A stretch of 20,899 nt of DNA, from the IMG/VR virus record IMGVR_UViG_3300037847_006095, positions 1-20,899 of that record, one strand, 5' to 3'. Shown in pieces: positions 6,703 through 19,512 of this stretch. Origin of the DNA: a virus. Every line of letters starts with the position of its first letter. Within the stretch, counting starts at the first letter, position 1. Under the pieces are notes generated by a model that saw nothing but the letters and a program-made list of their open reading frames with translations, ran no database searches and was not told the origin of the DNA. Position numbers and translations under genes: made by a program.

Positions 6703-7148
6703 TATATAGCAGGTCCTGTCGCGAAGGCGACATCTGGGTTAACAATAAACAATCCTTCGAGCACGGTTCTAACCTCGCTACCATTAGTGTACTGTATGTC
6801 ATACACATAGGTCCCTGCATCCACGCCCCCCATAGAGGTGGCATCTACCGTGAAGGTCACCTCGTTAAAGGGACTCTGATTCAAGATCTCAGTGGTTATC
6901 TGAGAGCCCGTATCGAGATCTGCCGTGTTTGTAGACAATATGGTCTTCTCGTATATGACAGGGTTGTTGATGCCAGCAGACCTACCTCCCTGCACCCGCT
7001 TGTCCTTTACAGACATAGCGAAGGTGTAAGAAGATAGATCTGTAGCCGACCCGTTGCTCTCGGTAAACTTGAGAGTAATGTTCATGCTGTCACCGCGCTT
7101 GACAATGATGTCTAGCTTTTCCGATATGTCTAGATTAGCTGTAGCCAT
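6702..7148 (-). CDS. Baseplate / fibre-attachment-like beta-sandwich protein
   Basis: 148 aa starting MATANLDISEKLD. It contains IVKRGDSMNITLKFTE, DLSSYTFAMSVKDK and DAGTYVYDIQYTNGSEVRTV followed by a short C-terminal strand LFIVNP. The RGDS-F/M-N-TL-F ... DLTGYTF-M-VR pattern resembles the N-terminal domain of upper-baseplate proteins (BppU-like) that attach receptor-binding units to the virion, judged from memory of that family. It is coupled by TAATG to both the portal upstream and the fibre gene downstream. The attachment role is an inference. Confidence 0.65.
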   Translation of the reverse strand: MATANLDISEKLDIIVKRGDSMNITLKFTESNGSATDLSSYTFAMSVKDKRVQGGRSAGINNPVIYEKTILSTNTADLDTGSQITTEILNQSPFNEVTFTVDATSMGGVDAGTYVYDIQYTNGSEVRTVLEGLFIVNPDVAFATGPAI

Positions 7149-9529
7149 TACTCCTGTTCTTGTTGTTCAACGACCTGCGCTTCGATCTGCTTTTCTTGTC
7201 GCTGGTCTTTGTTTTGTTCTTTCATGACCTCGATCTTCTCCTTGAAGTTCTGGTCGTCTTCGCGGAATCCGAGAGTGGCCTGGGCCTTAATCATCTCGAT
7301 CTCCTTTCTCATCTCGTGCTTAGCCTGCTCAAGCTGCATCTCGAACTGATGTTTCATCTGCATCTCCTGCTGCTTCGCCTGAGCTTCGGCCTGTATCTTC
7401 TGCTGCTCTCCTTGGGCTGCCGCCTCTGCAGCCTGCTGAGCCTGCTGCCCCTGAACCTGAGAGTTCTGGGCAGCCTGCTCCTGCTGCATCTGCATACGCT
7501 TCTTTCTGCGCAGCATCAACAGACGCTCTGCCTGATTTATATCCTTCATGTTTCGAACAGCAATCGCATCCTCCAGGTCGATCTGACCCTGCTGAATAGC
7601 CATCTGGATATTCTGCTCAAGGTACTCCTTGTCCTTGTCCTCCATGTCCCTGACGACCATTACGCCAAAGTTGTACATAGGTAGATCTCGGAACGAGGTG
7701 AGGACCCCCATGTTCGAATCACCTATCGCGTTAGCGTAGATGTTGAACAGAGTGGAGTCTTCTGGTATGATCTGCAAGCACTTAACAACATCCTGGCACA
7801 CTCTCTTGTACAAAGACAGAGAGGCGTTTGTGATATCATGTATAGCGTTGTTCCCCTGGTGGATGGCGATCTGCTGCACGCCTACCAAGGCGTCCCCCTT
7901 CGGAGTGGTACCGTCCATCTGCTCGTTGATTCCCGTTGTGTCGCGAATCAACTGCATGTAATGATTGTACAGAGCAATCATCTCGTTGATGTTCCGAATG
8001 GAGTTCGGTATCTGCTGAATCGGTGGTGCCGATGGTGCCCCTTCTGGCGTCTTGCTCCTGTAGTAGAAGACACCAGTCTGCTCGTAAATGTCGTGCAGCT
8101 CTAGAGGCTGAAGCTCTCCACCCTTGCCGAGCTGGACATTCTCCAATCCTTCGATATCGATGATCAATCCGTCGGGCTTGGCCTTAGCCACAGCTTGCTG
8201 GATCTTCAGGTGCGTGAGCTGAAGCATGTCCGCAAAGCCAGTGCAGCTCTCCACCATAGACTTGGGGATCATGCGGCGGAGGTTGGTGGCAGCCACGGAG
8301 TATGACATGCGAGCCTTGCTGATGTCGTGGATGTTCTTAGGAACATTCATAGCAGGGCCGTAGTCGAACACGCAGTCTGTGCCGATGATAAACTTGCCCC
8401 CGTACACAGAAGCCACCTCCATCTTGTGAGGGGTTCTTTCGAACACAGAGTTTTTACGCTCCTTGTACTCGTAACCCTTCATGTAGAAGTTCGAGTTTCC
8501 GAACTTGTTCTCCTTCTCCTCGAAGTATATGCAGTCCACAGAGATGAACTCGAAGGACAGGACGTCTACCATGTAGTTGTCGTACCCGTACTCCGTGCGC
8601 TGCATGCGCTCGTCGTATCTCGTTTTGTTGAAGTCGGCGGCGTCGTTGCCAGAGTTGGTCTTAACCTTCTGAGCTATCTCTTTAAAAAACTCTTCTCCCT
8701 TCTCTCCAGCCATACGGCGCTTGAGCTCTCCAATAGAGATGCGTTCTACGTGGCCAGCGTACACCAAATCACCGAAGTGAGGGTCCTCTGTATAGCTGTG
8801 TACAAAATCGATAGGGTCCACATACTCGACGCTGATACCGTGAGAGGGGTCGTTGTTTCTTTTCGTCACAGCCATGCCGAGAGTCACGATGTCGTTGACA
8901 CACCTCCTGTAAGTTGTGTCGTTGAAGTTGGACCACTCAAGAGTCATGTTGGTGGCGATCTGAGCAGCCACCTCTGCATCAGTCTTAATGTTTGTGTCCA
9001 AGAAGATTTCCGCCTCCTCCAAAGAGTCGGGAATCTCGTCTGGGTCTAGATCGAGGACCATGCCCGTAGTCTCCTTGAGCTGACGAAGAGCCTGCTTGTT
9101 CTCTACCTGAACCCTGATCTTGTCCTTCTTCTTGTTCTTCTCAGATGAAGACAAAGGGTCAACCGACTCCAGGTTGGGGTACGGGTTGCGAGATAGGATC
9201 TTGTTGGCCACCACCCTAACAAACTTCGGGAGGATGGGGACTGGGGTGAAATCAAGGTTCAGCAAACTCCCGTCTCCCTTATTGGGGGACAGTGAGTTAA
9301 GAAGCTGCTTGTATATAGAGGTGTCCTGATTGCCGTTCGCGTAGTCTCTGTTTCTGTCAAAGACTTTGTTCCTCTTGCTCAGCAGAGACGTAGAGTCCGT
9401 CTGCTTACCCCACTGAGAGTATATGGCTTTTGCGTACTGAAGGCCGTACTCTTGCGAAGACTTTTCGGCACGAGGGGCCAAGGGATCTGGAAAGCTTCCC
9501 TTCTTGTTGATGTTGCCAGTACTGTACAT
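7148..9529 (-). CDS. Portal protein
   Basis: 793 aa starting MYSTGNINKKGSF. The portal is the dodecameric ring at the capsid vertex through which DNA is packaged. The N-terminal part has FTPVPILPKFVRVVANKIL, typical of large portal proteins. The middle has MTLEWSNFNDTTYRRCVND, VEYVDPIDFVHSYTEDPHFG and the HYMQLIRDTTGINEQMDG / ALVGVQQIAIHQGNNAIHD core that marks the stem and wing. From about residue 650 a long Gln/Glu/Lys-rich coiled-coil tail runs to the end. It directly follows the terminase gene, the usual packaging order. A TATATTTG box lies 5 nt before the ATG, so a separate, possibly leaderless transcript may start here. The first Met is the only sensible start in the 18-nt gap. Confidence 0.9.
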   Translation of the reverse strand: MYSTGNINKKGSFPDPLAPRAEKSSQEYGLQYAKAIYSQWGKQTDSTSLLSKRNKVFDRNRDYANGNQDTSIYKQLLNSLSPNKGDGSLLNLDFTPVPILPKFVRVVANKILSRNPYPNLESVDPLSSSEKNKKKDKIRVQVENKQALRQLKETTGMVLDLDPDEIPDSLEEAEIFLDTNIKTDAEVAAQIATNMTLEWSNFNDTTYRRCVNDIVTLGMAVTKRNNDPSHGISVEYVDPIDFVHSYTEDPHFGDLVYAGHVERISIGELKRRMAGEKGEEFFKEIAQKVKTNSGNDAADFNKTRYDERMQRTEYGYDNYMVDVLSFEFISVDCIYFEEKENKFGNSNFYMKGYEYKERKNSVFERTPHKMEVASVYGGKFIIGTDCVFDYGPAMNVPKNIHDISKARMSYSVAATNLRRMIPKSMVESCTGFADMLQLTHLKIQQAVAKAKPDGLIIDIEGLENVQLGKGGELQPLELHDIYEQTGVFYYRSKTPEGAPSAPPIQQIPNSIRNINEMIALYNHYMQLIRDTTGINEQMDGTTPKGDALVGVQQIAIHQGNNAIHDITNASLSLYKRVCQDVVKCLQIIPEDSTLFNIYANAIGDSNMGVLTSFRDLPMYNFGVMVVRDMEDKDKEYLEQNIQMAIQQGQIDLEDAIAVRNMKDINQAERLLMLRRKKRMQMQQEQAAQNSQVQGQQAQQAAEAAAQGEQQKIQAEAQAKQQEMQMKHQFEMQLEQAKHEMRKEIEMIKAQATLGFREDDQNFKEKIEVMKEQNKDQRQEKQIEAQVVEQQEQE

Positions 9530-9547: not shown

Positions 9548-11662
9548 TCATCCGATCGTCTTATATCTGCGGAAGAACACCTTCTCTGCAAGATCTGACT
9601 TCGGCTTCTGTTTCACCTTCTGCGCTGCAAGCAAAGCTAAGCCAGAACTGATTGTTAAGTCGTACTTGGTTCGGTCGTTGATTTTGAAGCCGATCCAGTC
9701 CTCCAATGTACGATTAAAATACATCTTCCCGTAGTCGCCTGTATCGTAGTTCTCGCCTACATGATCGTGGATATAGGCCTCGATAGATTGGGCGTGAGAC
9801 TGTATCACGTCCTGGGAGTTAGAGGGGATACCCTTTGTCTTTACGTTCACCCTAGAGTTTGGGGTTCTTAGGTGTGCTGGCCTATCCATTAGGTATCCGT
9901 CGTAACCCCTTGACTCAAAGTATCTTACGATACCATACTTATTGTTCTCCACGAGGAGTGGATACCCGTAAAAGAACGCGGCCATAAGAACATCTTCGTA
10001 GAAGATCTTGGCAAGGTCTGGGCGGGACGCATACTCCACGACGAACATGTTCGATGGATTCTCCATGTGGAACTTGTTAAACAGGTGCAGAGCCCCCTTA
10101 GACCCCCTACCGTCTACAGTCGAGTCTAGATCGTAGGAGTCAACTCCCCCACACCCTCTGTCTGCAAACGGAGCGACAAGTTTGTTCCTATCCCTCTTGA
10201 TTACGTTTCTCTGTTCCGTGGGTGGCATCCAGGCCACACGGAACCTACCGTTGGGGTCTGGAGAGAATACAACCTCTTTGTCTTTCTCCTTCCAAATGAA
10301 GTTTCCTTTGACTACGGGGTTGGGGTACAGCTCGTCGTTATACTGTATCTGCTGGTAGATCTTCCCGATATTGAAAAGACTGCCGTCGATGCTGTCTCTG
10401 AAGGCCTCGTCTGTGCTGAACGGAAACTGTCTAGTTATCTCGTTCAGCTCGGAGGGGTTCTCCTTCATGCTGTCCCTCTCGTTCTTCAGGTACGTTTTCG
10501 CCCCTTGAACAATGCTATCGCCGTCAAGACCGTCCACAGGACTGCCAGGATCGTTAATGATTGGTTTTCCATGAACATCAAAAAAGCCTTCTAGTGATTC
10601 GTATGCTGGTATAAAAAGCCTGTACAGGCCACTCTTGGTTCTTCCGTTAGCGTTCCGATCCATAGGGTCGGAGTCGTTCCACAGGGCCTTATATTCCTTT
10701 CCGCCCTTGTCCATAGGATTTACTGTGGAGCCGACCATAGCCTTCCCCACAACCCTCCTACCGACGATGAGACATGTTCTCTGAATCCTCCATGCGTCTC
10801 TTATGTCCGTAGGCTTCTCCCACTTACCCGCCTCGTCGAGATATAGAAGATGTAGCTTCTCACCGTCGTATGCGTTGTTCGTGGTATTCTTCCAGTTGAT
10901 TACCGTATTAAGAGCCTCGCCCTTCTGCGAAGTCTTATTGTTCTTCGTGATTCTCTTACTCGGCTCGCGAAAAGCCAGCTCCATGCGTGGGTTTGTGGTA
11001 CCATCTTGTATGGGTTTAAAGAAGAAGGGGTAATGCCTAAACATCTGCACAACCTTCTTCATAAATATGTTCTCCTGGGCGTCCTTACCAGTCTTGGACT
11101 GGATGCCCATAAGCTTGTCTTTTACCTGAGTTGCCTCGTCTAGCAGTACGGCAGAGCAGATATTTGTGTATCCGCTCCGCCGACACTTAGTGTACAGCTG
11201 CCCCAAGCATCGGGGGTCCGCCTCACACGCTGCCATGTGCAGAAAGATGTCGCGCTGAAACTCAAGATACGAAGGATATCCTATATCGATCTTCGTCCAC
11301 TGCAACATCATGTAGTGCCTGCCTGTTATATACGTAGGCCTACCTGCATTAAAAAACCAAAAACCCTCACGCCTACGGCGAAACTCCTCTTCGATATACG
11401 GAGAAAACTTCTGCCGAAACTCTCTGGGCATCTCCCCCCACTCATCCATACTTTTAATACGAGACAATTCTGCAGGCATAGGAATCCTTTCCCACACCTG
11501 CAGGTTATCTGGCTTTCCATATCCCGCAATTTCTTTTTCGGGAGGCTGAGCGGGAAGCATAATGAGTAGGTCACCACGTTCAATACACTCGCCTTTCGAA
11601 CCCTTGGGACAAATTGAGATAGCAGGGACATCATATTCCTCTATGTCTACGAGGACAGACAT
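9548..11662 (-). CDS. terL: Terminase large subunit (packaging ATPase-nuclease)
   Basis: 704 aa starting MSVLVDIEEYDVP. It drives DNA into the prohead with an N-terminal ATPase and cuts the concatemer with a C-terminal RNase H-like nuclease. Visible features: GRPTYITGRHYMMLQWTKID (about 107-126); a deviant Walker A, TKCRRSGYT (158-166), with Lys early and Tyr at the usual Lys place, much like KSARVGYSK of lambda gpA; Walker B LLYLDEA (272-278); and a GST coupling motif near 311-313. Nuclease acidic residues are probably D508 (GGVDSYDLD) and E572 (LLVENNKYG). Its ATG overlaps the upstream stop as TAATG, and the portal follows 18 nt downstream. Length is at the upper end for terminases because of extra N-terminal sequence. 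Confidence 0.93.
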   Translation of the reverse strand: MSVLVDIEEYDVPAISICPKGSKGECIERGDLLIMLPAQPPEKEIAGYGKPDNLQVWERIPMPAELSRIKSMDEWGEMPREFRQKFSPYIEEEFRRRREGFWFFNAGRPTYITGRHYMMLQWTKIDIGYPSYLEFQRDIFLHMAACEADPRCLGQLYTKCRRSGYTNICSAVLLDEATQVKDKLMGIQSKTGKDAQENIFMKKVVQMFRHYPFFFKPIQDGTTNPRMELAFREPSKRITKNNKTSQKGEALNTVINWKNTTNNAYDGEKLHLLYLDEAGKWEKPTDIRDAWRIQRTCLIVGRRVVGKAMVGSTVNPMDKGGKEYKALWNDSDPMDRNANGRTKSGLYRLFIPAYESLEGFFDVHGKPIINDPGSPVDGLDGDSIVQGAKTYLKNERDSMKENPSELNEITRQFPFSTDEAFRDSIDGSLFNIGKIYQQIQYNDELYPNPVVKGNFIWKEKDKEVVFSPDPNGRFRVAWMPPTEQRNVIKRDRNKLVAPFADRGCGGVDSYDLDSTVDGRGSKGALHLFNKFHMENPSNMFVVEYASRPDLAKIFYEDVLMAAFFYGYPLLVENNKYGIVRYFESRGYDGYLMDRPAHLRTPNSRVNVKTKGIPSNSQDVIQSHAQSIEAYIHDHVGENYDTGDYGKMYFNRTLEDWIGFKINDRTKYDLTISSGLALLAAQKVKQKPKSDLAEKVFFRRYKTIG

Positions 11663-11847
11663 TAGAAAACCTGGCCGAGTCGGTTCCTCTTGAAGGAGGC
11701 CACGCCTGACTTAGGGTTTTTAACTTCCATATACTTGCCGCACGGACACTTGATGTCGTGATAGGCACCGTCTTTACCGAACTTGATAGAGACGCCACTC
11801 TTTTCTTCTTCGTGCTTTTCTTCGCACTTACAAATGTATTCTGCCAT
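11662..11847 (-). CDS. Small zinc-ribbon-like protein upstream of terminase
   Basis: 61 aa starting MAEYICKCEEKHEEE. Two CxC-type pairs (C6/C8 and C34/C36, in ICKC and KCPCGKYMEV) can form a zinc ribbon, followed by NPKSGVASFKRNRLG. Small proteins of this type are common next to phage terminase genes. It is coupled to the terminase by TAATG and begins 2 nt after the previous small gene. Function unknown; a zinc-stabilised adaptor or DNA-binding role is only an inference. Confidence 0.8.
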   Translation of the reverse strand: MAEYICKCEEKHEEEKSGVSIKFGKDGAYHDIKCPCGKYMEVKNPKSGVASFKRNRLGQVF

Positions 11848-11849
11848 AA

Positions 11850-11981
11850 TTATCGACCTTGGGAAGCATATCGCTTCTTGTAGTTTTTAGATTGCTTGTT
11901 CTTAGACTGCTTTGTTTTAGCATGGACGCCTTTTCTGCGAACCGTCTTTGACTTGTATGTACTTACCTGAGCTTTAGCCAT
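11850..11981 (-). CDS. Very basic 43-aa protein
   Basis: 43 aa: MAKAQVSTYKSKTVRRKGVH then AKTKQSKNKQSKNYKKRYAS and QGR. Lys, Arg, Ser and Asn make up most of it. The pattern YKSKT-RRKGVHAKTK-SKNK-SKNYKK-YRGQGR is one I recall from small phage proteins in the same position near terminase. The leader CAAAATTTAATACA is nearly the same as the one before the scaffold-like gene at 1027, consistent with Bacteroidetes A/T-rich initiation sites. Function unknown. Confidence 0.75.
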   Translation of the reverse strand: MAKAQVSTYKSKTVRRKGVHAKTKQSKNKQSKNYKKRYASQGR

Positions 11982-11995
11982 TGTATTAAATTTTG

Positions 11996-12069
11996 TACGC
12001 CCGACAGGATTCGAACCTGTGACCGTCTGCTTAGAAGGCAGATGCTCTATCCAACTGAGCTACGAGCGC
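11996..12069 (-). tRNA. tRNA-Arg (anticodon UCU)
   Basis: The minus strand folds into a complete cloverleaf: acceptor GCGCTCG/CGGGCGT (one terminal G-U), D-stem GCTC/GAGC, anticodon stem TCTGC/GCAGA with loop CTTCTAA, and T-stem ACAGG/CCTGT with TTCGAAT. The anticodon TCT reads AGA. CCA is not encoded (discriminator A then CAAA). One base separates it from the next tRNA. Confidence 0.95.
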
Positions 12070-12070
12070 A

Positions 12071-12147
12071 TGGTTGGGGCGGCGGGACTTGAACCCGCGA
12101 CTTCCTGTGTATAAGACAGACGCTCTAACCAACTGAACTACGCCCCA
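12071..12147 (-). tRNA. tRNA-Ile (anticodon UAU), CCA encoded
   Basis: Cloverleaf on the minus strand: acceptor TGGGGCG/CGCCCCA, D-stem GTTC/GAGC, anticodon stem TCTGT/ACAGG with loop CTTATAC, T-stem GCGGG/CCCGC with TTCAAGT, discriminator A and encoded CCA. Loop positions 34-36 are TAT, which reads AUA. Most bacteria read AUA with a CAU-anticodon tRNA modified to lysidine, so a UAU tRNA is unusual. Confidence 0.93.
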
Positions 12148-12193
12148 GTTTGATTGCCCATTACTCGTAGCGGGCCGTCTGGCGATTACCAAC

Positions 12194-12337
12194 CTAGTCT
12201 TCAAATTCATCGTTCCAGGATTCCTCCCAGAACTTAAAGTCTGTTCTATTGTATTGCCATACTATTTTTTTCCAATCATTTAGAGAATCTTTCAGCAAAA
12301 CCTCCGCTGTAGTCTTTGGCTTCTTCGATCCCTCCAT
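12194..12337 (-). CDS. Small Trp-rich protein overlapping its neighbour out of frame
   Basis: 47 aa: MEGSKKPKTTAEVLLKDSLN then DWKKIVWQYNRTDFKFWEES and WNDEFED. The first 62 nt overlap the end of the gene at 12276-12566 in another frame; the rest is unique and explains an otherwise empty gap before the tRNAs. Four Trp residues and an acidic C-terminus give it a protein-like character unlike random frames. Function unknown; its place two tRNAs and two small genes before terL is compatible with a packaging accessory. Confidence 0.65.
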   Translation of the reverse strand: MEGSKKPKTTAEVLLKDSLNDWKKIVWQYNRTDFKFWEESWNDEFED

Positions 12338-12566
12338 TTGTCTGTAAATCTTTTATCATTTGCTCTAGACGCTGGCGCTCTACCAGCAGCTCTTTGCAGT
12401 CCGTAGCCGTCTGCTTGATGGCAGTAAGCTCGGCCTTGCGTGCGCTCCCGTTGATCTCAGGATCAACAGGTTTCTTGACTTCGTCGATCATGTTGTTGAT
12501 GGCTACCTCCATCGACCTCATGAGTCGCTCAGCAGCTTCAATGGTCGTGAACTTCTTCTTCGACAT
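12276..12566 (-). CDS. Small helical coiled-coil protein upstream of terminase
   Basis: 96 aa starting MSKKKFTTIEAAERLM. It is almost wholly helical by composition, with heptad-like segments (AIKQTATDCKELLVERQRLE, then QMIKDLQ). The start overlaps the co-chaperonin gene by 29 nt. A small helical protein just before terL could be the terminase small subunit, but I see no helix-turn-helix signature to support this. Hypothetical. Confidence 0.75.
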   Translation of the reverse strand: MSKKKFTTIEAAERLMRSMEVAINNMIDEVKKPVDPEINGSARKAELTAIKQTATDCKELLVERQRLEQMIKDLQTNGGIEEAKDYSGGFAERFSK

Positions 12567-13140
12567 AGAGAAGGTCTTCTGATCGTGTTCTGTAGTAAGG
12601 CTTGTCGTCGATAAAGATCTTGTAGTCCATATCCTTTTTGATGCCTACAATGTCTCCGATCTTGAGCCCCAGGTCCTCTATCCATGGGGCGGTGAAAGCG
12701 ACCCTCGCTTTGGTAACCTTAGACTCCTCTAGCTTGACGACCTCGATAAGATCGCTCTGCTCTCCTGGGTCTACCTCCTCTACGTGCTCTAAAAGCGACC
12801 AACCACCCAAGGGTCTAATCTCACCTGTGTCCTTGCACTTGTAGGCAATAGCCTGGTTGTTTACCGTGTGCTCTGGATCGTACCTGACGAGGAAGTGTTT
12901 GTCTACGCCTGTGAGAACTTGACCCTCATTAAGAACCACAAGGTGATGGAAGTACAAGGTGTCTCCCTCTTTGACGCCAGTGTCGTAGCGCAAAGGTGAA
13001 CACACTACAGGGCCCTCGGTAACTCTGTGCTCGAAGTCCTTGAACTTAGAGTCTATATAGAGCTCGAAACCGCTGTCCGTCTTAATAGTGTCCTTGAGCT
13101 GCTTTTCCAGCTCAACGACAAACAGTTCCAATGTCTTCAT
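12538..13140 (-). CDS. GroES-like co-chaperonin with two Cpn10-type domains
   Basis: 200 aa starting MKTLELFVVELEKQL, about twice the length of bacterial GroES (about 95 aa). The first half has TDSGFELYIDSKF, VTEGPVVCSPLRYDTGVKEG and DTLYFHHLVV. This follows the Cpn10 order of an N-terminal strand, a mobile-loop region, a G-x-V ... VK-GD-V-F hairpin. The second half repeats it (KARVAFTAPWIEDLGLKIGD, IVGIKKDMDYKI, YYRTRSEDLLYVEE), with the final Y(Y/R)-x-R-x-(E/D)-x(D/E)(I/L)LYVE strand typical of GroES ends. Phage GroES-like proteins replace or modify host GroES for capsid folding. Domain identity is judged by eye; confidence in a Cpn10 fold is fairly high. Confidence 0.75.
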   Translation of the reverse strand: MKTLELFVVELEKQLKDTIKTDSGFELYIDSKFKDFEHRVTEGPVVCSPLRYDTGVKEGDTLYFHHLVVLNEGQVLTGVDKHFLVRYDPEHTVNNQAIAYKCKDTGEIRPLGGWSLLEHVEEVDPGEQSDLIEVVKLEESKVTKARVAFTAPWIEDLGLKIGDIVGIKKDMDYKIFIDDKPYYRTRSEDLLYVEEEVHDH

Positions 13141-13147
13141 ATTTAAT

Positions 13148-13471
13148 TTAATATCCTCCTCCGCCTCCGCCTCCTGATGGGGCTGATGAAGACTGAGAAG
13201 GGGGTGGGGTCTGAGAGGAAGCTGGGTTAGATCCGTTTGCAGCGTTTCTTTTTCTTTCGGCAGCAGCCTCTGCCCTCAGGTGATTCTGAAGGCTCTTTAC
13301 TCTTTCTGCAGCTGCGCTGTTGGCTGGGACAAGGATGTCATGAGGTCTAGGTGTATGAACACCCCCGACCATAGCTCCACGAGAAACGTGTACATGATAT
13401 GGTCCTACGTACGGCTGCCCGCTGGGGAGATTGAACTCCCCTCCGCCTGTGTATAGGTTCTCGAACGTCAT
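13148..13471 (-). CDS. Small conserved phage protein, YTGGGEF-YxGPYHxH type
   Basis: 107 aa starting MTFENLYTGGGEFNL. The N-terminal 50 residues carry the pattern YTGGGEF-LPSGQPYVGPYHVHV, MVGGVHTPRPHD, which I recall from conserved small virion-associated proteins of marine phages. The C-terminal half is disordered (Ala/Glu/Arg helix, then NGSNPASSQTPPPSQSSS and an eight-Gly run). It is coupled by TAATG to the upstream gene. Role unknown; a structural part is likely. Confidence 0.75.
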   Translation of the reverse strand: MTFENLYTGGGEFNLPSGQPYVGPYHVHVSRGAMVGGVHTPRPHDILVPANSAAAERVKSLQNHLRAEAAAERKRNAANGSNPASSQTPPPSQSSSAPSGGGGGGGY

Positions 13472-13704
13472 TAGAAATTACAGTCGTATTCAATTATGCA
13501 CGGCATCTCGTCTACAGATTTCCATAGCACCTGGCTACCGTCCTGCTGTAAATATACGAGATATCTCTTACGACTGTATCTAATTAGGTGTTCTTCGTCC
13601 ATGACAATGGCACTAACCTCACCGCCACCCGCTCTCATCCCCACAAAATACGCCATGGCATCCTTGGGATCTCTCCCAATGATTATCTTTCTAATAAGGC
13701 CCAT
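13471..13704 (-). CDS. Hypothetical 77-aa protein
   Basis: 77 aa starting MGLIRKIIIGRDPKDAM, with predicted mixed alpha/beta structure (FVGMRAGGGEVSAIVMDEEH and KRYLVYLQQDGSQVLWKSVD). No family recognised. A perfect -7 box (TATCTTTG, 13719-13726) lies 14 nt before the ATG with an A/T-rich leader (AACTAAAATTTAGT), so a transcript probably starts here, after the antisense wHTH gene interrupts the run. It ends in a TAATG overlap with the next gene. Confidence 0.75.
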   Translation of the reverse strand: MGLIRKIIIGRDPKDAMAYFVGMRAGGGEVSAIVMDEEHLIRYSRKRYLVYLQQDGSQVLWKSVDEMPCIIEYDCNF

Positions 13705-13712
13705 ACTAAATT

Positions 13713-14015
13713 TTAGTTCAAAGATATGCCCAATCCGTCAAACAGATCGTCGAAGTCGAGGCCTCGGTCTATATCTTTGTTTTCTCTCCACGTCTCCGTA
13801 GCGAAGTCGATCAGAGTCTGGAGCTCTAGTTCGTCGTGCATGTTGTGGGAGTATATTGCCTTCATGCGGGACTTATCATCTTCCTCCTCCATGGCTTCGA
13901 GGACACCCACGACCATCATGGAAAGAACCTTGTCTCGCATCTCGTACTTGTCAATCAAGAGCTCGAGTTCGATTGCCAACCTATGAACCTCCATCAAGAA
14001 ATCATCATCCATCAT
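13713..14015 (-). CDS. Hypothetical acidic helical protein
   Basis: 100 aa from ATG 14015 (MMDDDFLMEVHRLAI). The frame stays open to 14126, but the longer start would overlap the plus-strand gene by 99 nt and adds a different composition, so I prefer 14015. It is strongly acidic and helical (YEMRDKVLSMMVVGVLEAME, RGLDFDDLFDGLG). No family recognised. Its start is only 12 bp from the divergent start of the plus gene at 14028, so the two share a minimal intergenic region. Confidence 0.7.
   Translation of the reverse strand: MMDDDFLMEVHRLAIELELLIDKYEMRDKVLSMMVVGVLEAMEEEDDKSRMKAIYSHNMHDELELQTLIDFATETWRENKDIDRGLDFDDLFDGLGISLN
13719..13726 (-). promoter_or_regulatory. Bacteroidetes-type -7 box TATCTTTG
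   Basis: Minus strand TATCTTTG fits TAnnTTTG and lies 14 nt upstream of ATG 13704, within the last codons of the preceding gene. It would restart minus transcription downstream of the antisense gene at 14028-14450. Confidence 0.4.
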
Positions 14016-14027
14016 AGCTATTAGTTT

Positions 14028-14450
14028 ATGCCAAAAAGCAAAGTCCCCAAGAAGCGGATGTTCCGCGACTTTAGTCGACAAGATAAGAAGTATATCAAGA
14101 GGAACAATCTCAAGAGGCTCAAGCAAATGCGCCAGAAGGTTACGTCTCAGTGGGAGATCTCCTTCTCGGATCTAGAGTTTCTTTTGTGGGGGTATGACCT
14201 ACAGTTCTTTACGATAGACTACGCAGCTCAGGATCTGGAGATGAACAAGACAAACCTGTCCAACCGAATCATCTACCCCATGCAGAGGGCGGGCTATCTA
14301 TATAAGCACTTTGACAAGCTCACCCCTTCAGACACATACGAGGATCATCTATTCCGAGATGAGACGAAGTACAACTACAGGGTTAGATACGGGTTGACTC
14401 AGAAGGCTAGGCTCCTGGTGCAGAGATTCTACAGGGAGCTAGAGGATTAA
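14028..14450 (+). CDS. Probable winged-helix (MarR-like) protein on the opposite strand
   Basis: 140 aa starting MPKSKVPKKRMFRDF, in plus orientation inside a minus-strand block. It has a basic N-terminus (about residues 1-45) and an LEFLLWGYDLQFFTIDYAAQ segment (about 49-68). Then comes a helix-turn-helix-like part (DLEMNKTNLSNRIIYPMQRA, GYLYKHF) and a wing-like strand region (DETKYNYRVRYGLTQKARLL). This order (helices, recognition helix, beta-wing with TxKGR/LLVQ) resembles MarR-family winged-helix proteins, and similar proteins occur in Bacteroidetes phages by my recollection. It fits exactly between minus genes ending at 14447 and starting at 14015. The TTAA at 14447-14450 supplies both convergent stops. 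Likely a DNA-binding regulator. Confidence 0.75.
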   Translation: MPKSKVPKKRMFRDFSRQDKKYIKRNNLKRLKQMRQKVTSQWEISFSDLEFLLWGYDLQFFTIDYAAQDLEMNKTNLSNRIIYPMQRAGYLYKHFDKLTPSDTYEDHLFRDETKYNYRVRYGLTQKARLLVQRFYRELED

Positions 14451-14698
14451 AGAATATCGTCTTCTGTTATGACCTCGGTCCACTCGGAGCCATCCAGCAC
14501 CTCTTGTATCTGAGACAGAGTGTATGTCGTCATTCCTGAAAAGAAAGAGGGAACGGGCGTTTCATACTGAATCACCGCCTTGGTTCCGTCTAGACTATAC
14601 CTCAGCTTTGAACTGTCCGAGTAAGACAGCTTAGAAAAGTCTATTGAGGAGTTTGGGTCGTCGAGATCCGACTTGTTTACAACTACGTACTTAATCAT
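14447..14698 (-). CDS. Hypothetical 83-aa protein downstream of the LamG adhesin
   Basis: 83 aa starting MIKYVVVNKSDLDDP, with SKLRYSLDGTKAVIQYETPV and SQIQEVLDGSEWTEVI. The ATG overlaps the stop of the LamG gene as ATGA. The I-Y-LS-QI-E-L-(N/D)SPEW pattern is one I associate with short phage proteins following fibre genes, possibly a fibre assembly factor. Its last codons meet the end of the plus-strand wHTH gene in a shared TTAA. Confidence 0.7.
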   Translation of the reverse strand: MIKYVVVNKSDLDDPNSSIDFSKLSYSDSSKLRYSLDGTKAVIQYETPVPSFFSGMTTYTLSQIQEVLDGSEWTEVITEDDIL

Positions 14699-15513
14699 GG
14701 TGAACCTGGTGGATTAGTGTTATCGACGAAATCTGGTGTCCCCTGGGCTGTTCCCGTGGTGCCGTTTCCAGTTTCATCGGTGTAGTCGTTTTCAAACCTA
14801 TACCAATGCTGAAGGTTAGAGGAGTTGTCGTAGTTCCCGCTATCTTCGGAAAGATCTATAGAGGACCCACTGTTGTATATGGCTGTTACGGCGTCTGCGT
14901 CTAAGGCTGTGCTCCAAATAGCAAACTCGTCCATCTTTCCAGAAAAGTGCCCGTCTATAGTTCCGTTTGTATTTGACCTTGCACCGATAGCTAACTCATG
15001 CCCGCTTGCGGCAGAAAAAGCTTCTTGAGTGGATTTTGTTGGTCCGTTGGTGTTGGTTTCTATCAGGCTTCCATTAAGGTAGAGCTTTACCGTAGCGGTA
15101 TCCGAAGCGCTGGCTCCCTTCTCTACCGTGACAACTAGATGATTCCAAGAACTACTGTTCCATGTGATAGGACCAGCAAGACCTGTTGCGCCAGAGCTGT
15201 CAAACTTAGTCGCGACTTGAATGTACTTTGGACCAAACGTTAGAAGCCTTAGTGACACCTCATAATTGGGGGCTCCAGAGGTGACAATTCCCATCGGGAA
15301 ACATGTAGAGAAACTACCGTCGTAGAGCCATATTTGATAGCTAAATGAGTCCGAAAAAACAGAACTTGTTTCAGAGCTTGACAATAGCTCAACGTACTCC
15401 GTGCCGTCTACAGCTAAATGGTAGTCATTAGAGTAAGAAGCCTCCCTACCGCCTATGCCGTACGAGCCTCCCCCAGTAACACCTAGCTTTGTACCTAGAC
15501 CTATATTCATCAT
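14695..15513 (-). CDS. LamG/concanavalin-like domain virion adhesin
   Basis: 272 aa starting MMNIGLGTKLGVTGG. After a Gly-rich N-terminal 30 residues (probable virion anchor), residues about 32-215 form a LamG/ConA-type jelly roll: YHLAVDGTEYVELL, FSYQIWLYDG, SSWNHLVVTVEKG, ATVKLYLNGSLIET, LAIGARSNTNGTIDGHFSGK and MDEFAIWSTALDADAVTAIY. The last of these is the strongly conserved end of LamG-3 domains. The C-terminal LQHWYRFENDYTDETGNG segment is also typical. Such domains bind glycans, so a receptor-binding or decoration role is likely. The start overlaps the M15 peptidase stop as TGATG. Confidence 0.85.
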   Translation of the reverse strand: MMNIGLGTKLGVTGGGSYGIGGREASYSNDYHLAVDGTEYVELLSSSETSSVFSDSFSYQIWLYDGSFSTCFPMGIVTSGAPNYEVSLRLLTFGPKYIQVATKFDSSGATGLAGPITWNSSSWNHLVVTVEKGASASDTATVKLYLNGSLIETNTNGPTKSTQEAFSAASGHELAIGARSNTNGTIDGHFSGKMDEFAIWSTALDADAVTAIYNSGSSIDLSEDSGNYDNSSNLQHWYRFENDYTDETGNGTTGTAQGTPDFVDNTNPPGSP

Positions 15514-15986
15514 CAGTCTATTATTGCTTCGTAGTAAACCTGTCCATTATCATCCCTGCAAGCGCGAAGGCACCTCTTGCGATTATCTCCGCCGTAAACA
15601 AAACTGACGTGAACCCAATCAGGGCTGCCTTCATCACCAAACTCCCAAATAAGCTGATCAAACTCCAGATTGTTTTTAATGTAGTGGAAGACGTCACAGT
15701 TCGATGTGCCTCCGAAAACATCCGCGTCGAGGTCGAGTGCGCGTCCCTCCATGTGCTGACTACGGGACGAGCCTTTGATAGCATTGTTGAGCTCAGGCGA
15801 ACGATAGCCTGACGACACGTATATAGGAACTCCGATACCGTCCCTAAGAGGTTGAAATACGTGTTCTGCAATCGCTTTGAGATTTTCGACAACCCAGTCA
15901 TCGTGTGGTTCGTTTTTTATTCCAAGACGCTTTGCCGTGTTGCTTCTAAGACACTCCGCCAGGGATAGGTTTTTTGATAAATTCAT
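15513..15986 (-). CDS. M15-family peptidase, probable endolysin
   Basis: 157 aa starting MNLSKNLSLAECLRS. The zinc site of D,D-peptidases is complete: SxHxxGxAxDxD as SQHMEGRALDLDAD (H78, D85) and H126 in DWVHVSF, with the upstream SSGYRSPELNNAIKG substrate loop. This Peptidase_M15_3-type domain cleaves D-Ala-containing peptide crosslinks and often serves as a phage endolysin. No signal peptide or transmembrane segment is seen, so release would need a holin, or the enzyme may be virion-associated given its fibre-side location. The only plausible alternative start gives a 22-aa frame and was not used. Confidence 0.88.
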   Translation of the reverse strand: MNLSKNLSLAECLRSNTAKRLGIKNEPHDDWVVENLKAIAEHVFQPLRDGIGVPIYVSSGYRSPELNNAIKGSSRSQHMEGRALDLDADVFGGTSNCDVFHYIKNNLEFDQLIWEFGDEGSPDWVHVSFVYGGDNRKRCLRACRDDNGQVYYEAIID

Positions 15987-16021
15987 CTTCTTTGTTGAGG
16001 GCAGATTCTTTCATTACGCCG

Positions 16022-19161: not shown

Positions 19162-19512
19162 CGATTAGCTTGTTTGTCGCAAATATACACTAAGTAAACG
19201 TAGTCAGTCCACATAGCCCCCGCTCGCCCGCCTTAAAACACAGCTAACCCGTATTGAACAGCAATATGAGAACCGAATCAGTGTGGATGCCCTCAAGCAT
19301 CCCACTAACGATTGCTTCATTCTCACGATCGCAAAGTTATAACAGGAATTTTTAAAAGTCAACCCTAAAGTTTTGATTTAATAGCACCGAATAACAGCTT
19401 GATCCACAGCTTGTTAGCGGATTCTTGGCGAAATCCGCATGGATCGCAATAATTTTTGGGAGTAATGTTTATGGTGGGGATTATATGTCTACGTGTGAGA
19501 GACCTCCACCGA
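19162..19512. other. Divergent non-coding region between leftward and rightward blocks
   Basis: No credible gene. It holds the leftward promoter (19180-19187), an inverted repeat GGATGC/GCATCC (19285-19290, 19297-19302), a 7-bp inverted repeat GCGGATT/AATCCGC (19417-19423, 19432-19438), ACAGCTTG repeated at 19394-19401 and 19406-19413, and GATCGCAA at 19327-19334 and 19442-19449. It could contain the rightward promoter, operators or an origin. No perfect plus-strand TAnnTTTG was found; TAATTTTTG near 19450 is one base too long. Confidence 0.5.
19180..19187 (-). promoter_or_regulatory. Bacteroidetes-type -7 box TATATTTG for the leftward operon
   Basis: Minus strand GTATATTTGCGA, 18 nt upstream of ATG 19161. 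A leader of about 12 nt (ACAAACAAGCTAATCG region) is A-rich without a Shine-Dalgarno site. Confidence 0.65.

Follow-up and report, generated by a model that had tools for sequence, protein, structure and literature searches.

The window analysed here, 20,899 nucleotides of a viral record of 24,797 bp (positions 1 to 20,899 of IMG/VR record IMGVR_UViG_3300037847_006095), contains a gene, wH, that encodes a predicted MarR-fold regulator and lies on the plus strand at 14028-14450, opposite in orientation to the late genes of the phage. With confidence a little above even, wH is read here as an autoregulating MarR-like brake on the late block, with a late promoter box located inside the wH coding sequence. 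The locus is explained most economically by a MarR-like regulator that stands back to back with the late block. If true, it would be a clear case of a coding sequence that also supplies the promoter for the operon under its control, a dual role seen as frozen silent sites. Literature searches returned no account of this gene, of this layout, or of how these uncultured podoviruses, related to Bacteroidota phages, control their late genes. The proposal can be tested, since the candidate regulator is conserved, its target is predicted and relatives are in culture (phi18:3, elemo and phi38:1).

The wH gene, recognised from its ORF, its homologues and a fold model, runs from ATG to TAA and encodes 140 amino acids. 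On its left is the minus-strand gene g100 (13713-14015), which starts at 14015 and leaves 12 nt (14016-14027) between the divergent start codons. On its right is the convergent minus-strand gene g83 (14447-14698), whose stop codon reads TTA on the plus strand at 14447-14449, while the stop codon of wH is the TAA at 14448-14450; the TTAA at 14447-14450 is common to both. A sequence-only reading of this DNA had described the 12-nt gap and the stops overlapping in TTAA, and both descriptions are borne out. The ORF is confirmed as real and its layout as fixed. Among 420-nt wH homologues, 25, 18 and 57% of the differences fall at codon positions 1, 2 and 3, respectively, and since differences concentrate by codon position as in coding genes, wH is regarded as a coding gene. 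The same reading called wH a lone gene. This holds for the relative G004, where no ORF other than wH was called on the opposite strand from 4332 to 39333; in G001, G002 and G005 a crude ORF caller reports further opposite-strand ORFs, mostly short, in the late block. A terminator or other conserved element at the shared stops was considered and rejected, as silent-site conservation is absent there. A consensus scan of 13000-15600 returned three terminator-like sites, all on the plus strand, versus 1.6 expected.

Leftward of g100, which is the first gene of a conserved block, the block continues on the minus strand with the small conserved gene g77 (13471-13704), a GroES-like co-chaperonin matching phrog_13932 (12538-13140), the small conserved gene g96 (12276-12566, recognised from relatives), the terminase large subunit TerL matching phrog_6681 (9548-11662), and the portal protein matching phrog_6547 (7148-9529). 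ORFs together with relatives define g100, g77 and g83. Next to g83 is a minus-strand Laminin-G/ConA-like protein with a match to PF13385 (14695-15513), which belongs to a variable region. Heading the late block is a canonical Bacteroidota promoter of the form TTG-N20-TAACTTTG on the minus strand (19332-19362); its sequence, TTGACTTTTAAAAATTCCTGTTATAACTTTG (19362 to 19332), recurs with few changes in G001, G002, G004 and G005. Genes for tRNA-Arg and tRNA-Ile lie between TerL and the GroES block (11995-12147, minus strand), and an Rfam search over 11000-16000 returned nothing besides tRNAs. Silent-site conservation in the first five codons of g77 (13690-13704, minus strand) is 0.83 versus 0.54, and it is also in excess over TerL codons 11-120 (47 genes). 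Within TerL there is a +1-frame ORF (11326-11634, minus strand) of 102 amino acids, rich in Cys and Arg. It is open for at least 104 codons in 76/76 TerL genes, whereas at least 90 open codons occur in only 3/371 control windows of the same frame, and it is a candidate overprinted gene.

Relatives of wH were collected from IMG/VR, where the window protein as query returned 157 and a divergent member returned 183. Eighty from each search were used, giving 160 loci from overlapping sets, and the omission of 58 loci whose wH DNA was identical to that of another left 102 distinct wH genes (63 from the first scan and 39 from the second). All 102 start with ATG. Synteny in relatives, the check proposed by the sequence-only reading, is strong on the left: g77 and GroES lie on the strand opposite to wH in 101/101 loci with a left flank of at least 1500 nt, and TerL, found in 97 of the 102 loci, is always on the minus strand. 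Loci that keep these neighbours and lack the ORF, which that reading had named as evidence against itself, did not appear among the recovered loci, all of which were fetched through the wH protein, so that contigs without wH could not surface. The start-to-start gap between wH and g100 is 11-25 nt in 58 of 81 rows, these being rows in which the g100 alignment reaches residue 1; another 18 rows give an upper bound only and five have no g100 match. To the right of wH, 73 of 76 loci have their longer ORF on the opposite strand and three have it on the plus strand (flank of at least 1200 nt, with 26 loci excluded for too short a flank). A minus-strand ORF of at least 50 amino acids ends close to the wH stop in 73 loci, and the stops overlap or abut in 51 of these 73, with the exact 4-nt overlap in 30. 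The right side is variable in content, as g83 was recognised in 9/81 loci and the laminin-G protein in 16/81, counts that include the window. Because the left side is kept and the right side varies, wH sits where a conserved block gives way to variable content.

The window terminase has relatives in 107 phage records, the closest being MW202828 (48%), and since these records are mostly of Flavobacterium and Cellulophaga phages, the host is probably a member of the Bacteroidota. The idea of a lysogeny repressor was rejected, as a link to prophages found no support. The one relative in a genome collection of 84,980 species was partial and came from a metagenome-assembled Bacteroidetes genome (contig of 3.3 kb), in a scan that used two short patterns which distant relatives may escape.

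The sequence-only reading took wH for a winged-helix protein, and structure prediction, which it had also proposed, agrees with this. Two AlphaFold2 models of wH (pLDDT 75 and 81) are mainly helical, and for both the top Foldseek rows in the PDB are MarR-family proteins; at E<=0.001 there are 14 chains for model 1 and none for model 2, which is the more confident model. VIA-align matches wH to FabT with a Z of 10.7 (93 residues, 3.2 A) and to MepR and many MarR proteins with a Z of about 10, values to be set against the program's own caution that models without a clear match typically score 7 to 8. The wing region (about residues 97-116) is of low confidence in the models and nearly invariant within the clade. 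A MarR-type winged-helix fold is supported by these predictions. The window protein matches no Pfam family, and no MarR model is among the families listed for 56 members (Pfam E<=10, NCBIfam E<=1), in searches whose HMMER filters discard most weak matches. The nearest profile is Staph_reg_Sar, matched by 2 of the 56 members (E 0.024), and a search of the PDB by sequence gave no wH relative (best E 0.22).

Distant relatives of wH were reached through phrog_17028, which matches the window protein weakly (E 6.8e-4, residues 13-95) and matches 20 of 35 wH members at E<=0.1 (best 9e-6). This family led to gp082 of phi18:3, UOF82529 of MW202828 and CDS0105 of Panino. UOF82529 is deposited as 'repressor protein', and the MW202828 relative matches phrog_12817, which is named transcriptional regulator (E 6.6e-4). 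An hhalign comparison of the A3 profile with gp082 and two relatives gave 96.9% and an E of 1.7e-10 over about 100 residues (E 2.3e-9 with fewer sequences). These profile comparisons support homology of wH to the distant relatives in phi18:3, MW202828, Panino, elemo and phi38:1 phages. The homologue is opposite to the late genes in phi18:3, MW202828 and Panino. In all six Panino-like contigs (6/6) it is one of two plus-strand genes that form an island flanked by minus ORFs; a search of these contigs for the late-gene neighbours of Panino gave no match, and the flanking ORFs are late genes only putatively. The homologues in elemo (gp45) and phi38:1 (within gp078) are co-directional with the late genes, and for that reason antisense placement is not essential.

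The strongest run of silent-site conservation in wH takes in codons 18-20 and 22 and exceeds any window in g100, groES, g96 or portal; among six neighbours scanned, comparable or stronger windows occur only at the start of g77 and the 5' end of TerL. Across 49 non-redundant genes (<93% identity), Q18 is CAA in 48/49, D19 is GAT in 48/48, K20 is AAG in 43/43 and Y22 is TAT in 48/49, and same-residue codon identity over the whole of wH is 0.47. The frozen element found by the silent-site scan, ATACTTCTTATCTTGT on the late strand (codons 17-22, 14078-14093, minus strand), contains a candidate -7 box, TATCTTGT (14085 to 14078, minus strand), and the late-strand reading of the frozen stretch is ATAYTTCTTATCTTGY. 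In Flavobacterium an SM5 box, TAnnTTGY, is described as occupying the place of the sigma-A box TAnnTTTG, and its contribution was confirmed by mutagenesis in one F. psychrophilum operon (PMC9723704). Codons 18-20 and 22 of wH read TATCTTGY on the late strand, which fits the SM5 pattern. The TATCTTG at codons 18-20 is present in 71 of the 102 genes and is followed by a pyrimidine in 68 of these 71, even though the amino acid at position 17 is variable (L, K, R, M, P, V, Y). A distal clade shows another pattern of frozen codons, with TACCTTTG in 13/16 genes and TATCTTTG in 1/16; TACCTTTG is a box of the sigma-A type, TAnnTTTG, about 6 nt from the position of the main-clade box.

A box lies within codons 16-27 in 83/102 genes, compared with a mean of 23.7 and a maximum of 37 in 1000 synonymous shuffles, a test that ignores shared ancestry, which inflates the 83/102 figure. 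With a looser pattern the count is 85/102 in codons 13-24 versus 0 to 14/102 in other 12-codon windows. The consensus box is missing in 19/102 genes and in 9 of 31 representatives at <80% identity, and among the 39 second-scan genes there are several clades in which the freeze does not hold. Strong silent-site conservation was not found in the 3' part of wH. The -33 TTTG, an element defined for sigma-A, occurs at a spacing of 17-23 in 0/83 box-bearing genes, and TTG occurs at that spacing in 16/83, which is not commoner than at other spacings. As the -33 TTTG is missing, the box in wH is described as promoter-like and not as a proven sigma-A promoter. Judged from the box position alone, a late transcript would be predicted to start near 14073, which would give g100 a leader of 58 nt. 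The 15-bp frozen element occurs once each in the window and four large relatives (0 or 1 mismatch). Its presence in phi18:3, MW202828, Panino and elemo was rejected, as these have only scattered matches with 2 or 3 mismatches, the sole match within a homologue being in phi18:3 with 3 mismatches. In elemo and Panino phages, TTCKTATCTT boxes, which resemble the frozen element, precede the starts of late genes by 20-33 nt (8849 and 22086 in L084; 13698 and 19614 in L083). A phage sigma factor for an SM5-like box was sought and rejected, with PF04542 and PF04545 each found in 0/8 records, which are possibly fragments.

On the late strand the box is followed closely, on its downstream side, by a palindrome, CGACTTTAGTCG (14066-14077), picked out by a palindrome test, and others of the window clade at that place are AGAGAATTCTCT, CCGAGAGTTCTCTCGG and TCGGGATTTCTCCCGA. 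For codons 12-18 the mean best arm in 55 representatives is 4.29 versus 3.18 in shuffled sequences (0/500), in a post hoc test whose codon range was chosen after inspection and in which two other ranges reach about 4 sd. A good palindrome is missing in several clades, and the palindrome of the window is suggestive as an operator candidate. In MW202828, the gap between regulator and late genes carries a -7 box for each direction, TATTTTTG for the late genes and TAAATTTG for the regulator, and a perfect 9-bp inverted repeat, TGTCACAAA-N10-TTTGTGACA, overlaps both; this overlap of a putative operator with the -7 boxes suggests repression and autorepression. The gap of phi18:3 also has -7 boxes on both strands, TACTTTTG and TATTTTTG. 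A search of the window for a plus-strand promoter of wH found none; its early strand has a single TTG-N17-24-TAnnTTTG site, which lies a long way from the gene. A TATCTT about 20-30 nt upstream of wH was rejected as its promoter, as it occurs in several clades and not in the window's own.

The mechanism proposed is that wH would be a MarR-fold DNA-binding regulator in a phage probably infecting Bacteroidota, and that it would share a control region with the back-to-back block g100-g77-GroES-g96-TerL-portal. In relatives with wider gaps (MW202828 and phi18:3) both promoters would lie inside the gap. In the window lineage, with a gap of about 11-25 nt, the late -7 box would lie in wH codons 18-22 on the opposite strand, and the wH coding sequence would double as promoter DNA of the late block. 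MarR genes often regulate themselves and a divergent neighbour. Most likely the wH protein would bind the palindromic control region and repress its own gene, and it would hold the late block down early, until diluted or titrated by accumulating phage DNA. Directly shown are the reading frame and its constant position, the fold prediction, the codon freeze, the similarity to a known box and the presence of boxes in relatives; promoter activity of the box, binding of wH there, repression and its timing we infer. A further reading, held with distinctly less than even confidence, is that the coding sequence of the regulator is, on the other strand, the promoter of its operon, selection having frozen silent sites and the -7 box having come to lie within the gene as an intergenic switch region collapsed; the two clades with TAnnTTGY versus TAnnTTTG would then indicate a shift in the sigma factor specificity of late transcription under an unchanged layout.

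The sequence-only reading had suggested that wH and the late operon could interfere through antisense transcripts and form a switch. A switch is plausible; its core, on the evidence here, would be a promoter/operator region in which the two sides overlap and share DNA, and not antisense RNA. That antisense transcription is itself the switch, with late minus-strand read-through silencing wH and wH transcription blocking the late operon, appears quite unlikely. It would suit the position of wH, which has minus genes on both sides and shared stops that leave a terminator no space, and a promoter facing an oppositely transcribed regulator would produce collisions too; the co-directional homologues of elemo and phi38:1 and the 3' part of wH, which lacks strong silent-site conservation, argue against it. 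Antisense interference may add to the control and is unneeded, because two lineages carry the gene the other way round. It is also unlikely that the frozen codons are some other cis element, such as an operator for a protein, a site of packaging or replication, or an element of the wH mRNA. The single copy of the 15-bp element in the window and each of four large relatives would be expected of such a site, as would a box that has no -33 element, but the match to TAnnTTGY extends to the pyrimidine despite the variable residue 17, and another clade carries TAnnTTTG about 6 nt away.

MarR proteins are capable of activation, and wH could be an activator or a DNA-binding protein merely co-expressed with the late genes, either of which we regard as improbable. 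Co-expression has a precedent in the bS21 gene of Bacteroidetes phages, a reverse-strand gene that lies within a conserved structural block and shares its late expression (PMC9723584). The palindrome of MW202828 that overlaps both -7 boxes fits repression better. A small-terminase-like or other packaging protein in place of a regulator would account for the basic N-terminus of wH and the nearby TerL, but is very improbable in view of the predicted MarR-type fold and the match of the MW202828 relative to a transcriptional regulator family.

Taking wH as a MarR-like brake on the late block, its resemblance to the MarR family (FabT, MepR, AbfR) lies in the predicted fold over about residues 25-140, at a Z of about 10. 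It differs in having no sequence match to any MarR model in Pfam or NCBIfam, and its wing is longer than in its own distant relatives. A trait of the MarR family is a homodimer bound to a palindromic operator, for which the palindromes seen here are candidates. The gp082 gene of the Cellulophaga phage phi18:3 (phrog_17028, Pachyviridae) is, like wH, a lone gene opposite to the late genes, and its convergent stop overlaps the neighbouring gene by 4 nt. Unlike wH, gp082 encodes 208 amino acids with N- and C-terminal extensions, and its 98-nt divergent gap has ordinary -7 boxes, with none inside the coding sequence. The boxes in wH are like the Bacteroidota sigma-A and SM5 boxes described in PMC6847099 and PMC9723704, with TAnnTTTG mostly in the distal clade and TAnnTTGY in the main clade; they differ from the boxes described there in lying antisense within the coding sequence of a regulator and in lacking the -33 element. 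The bS21 system, as described in PMC9723584, similarly has a single conserved reverse-strand gene within a terminase/portal block, but it is found in other phages and that gene encodes a ribosomal protein, whereas wH is predicted to encode a DNA-binding regulator.
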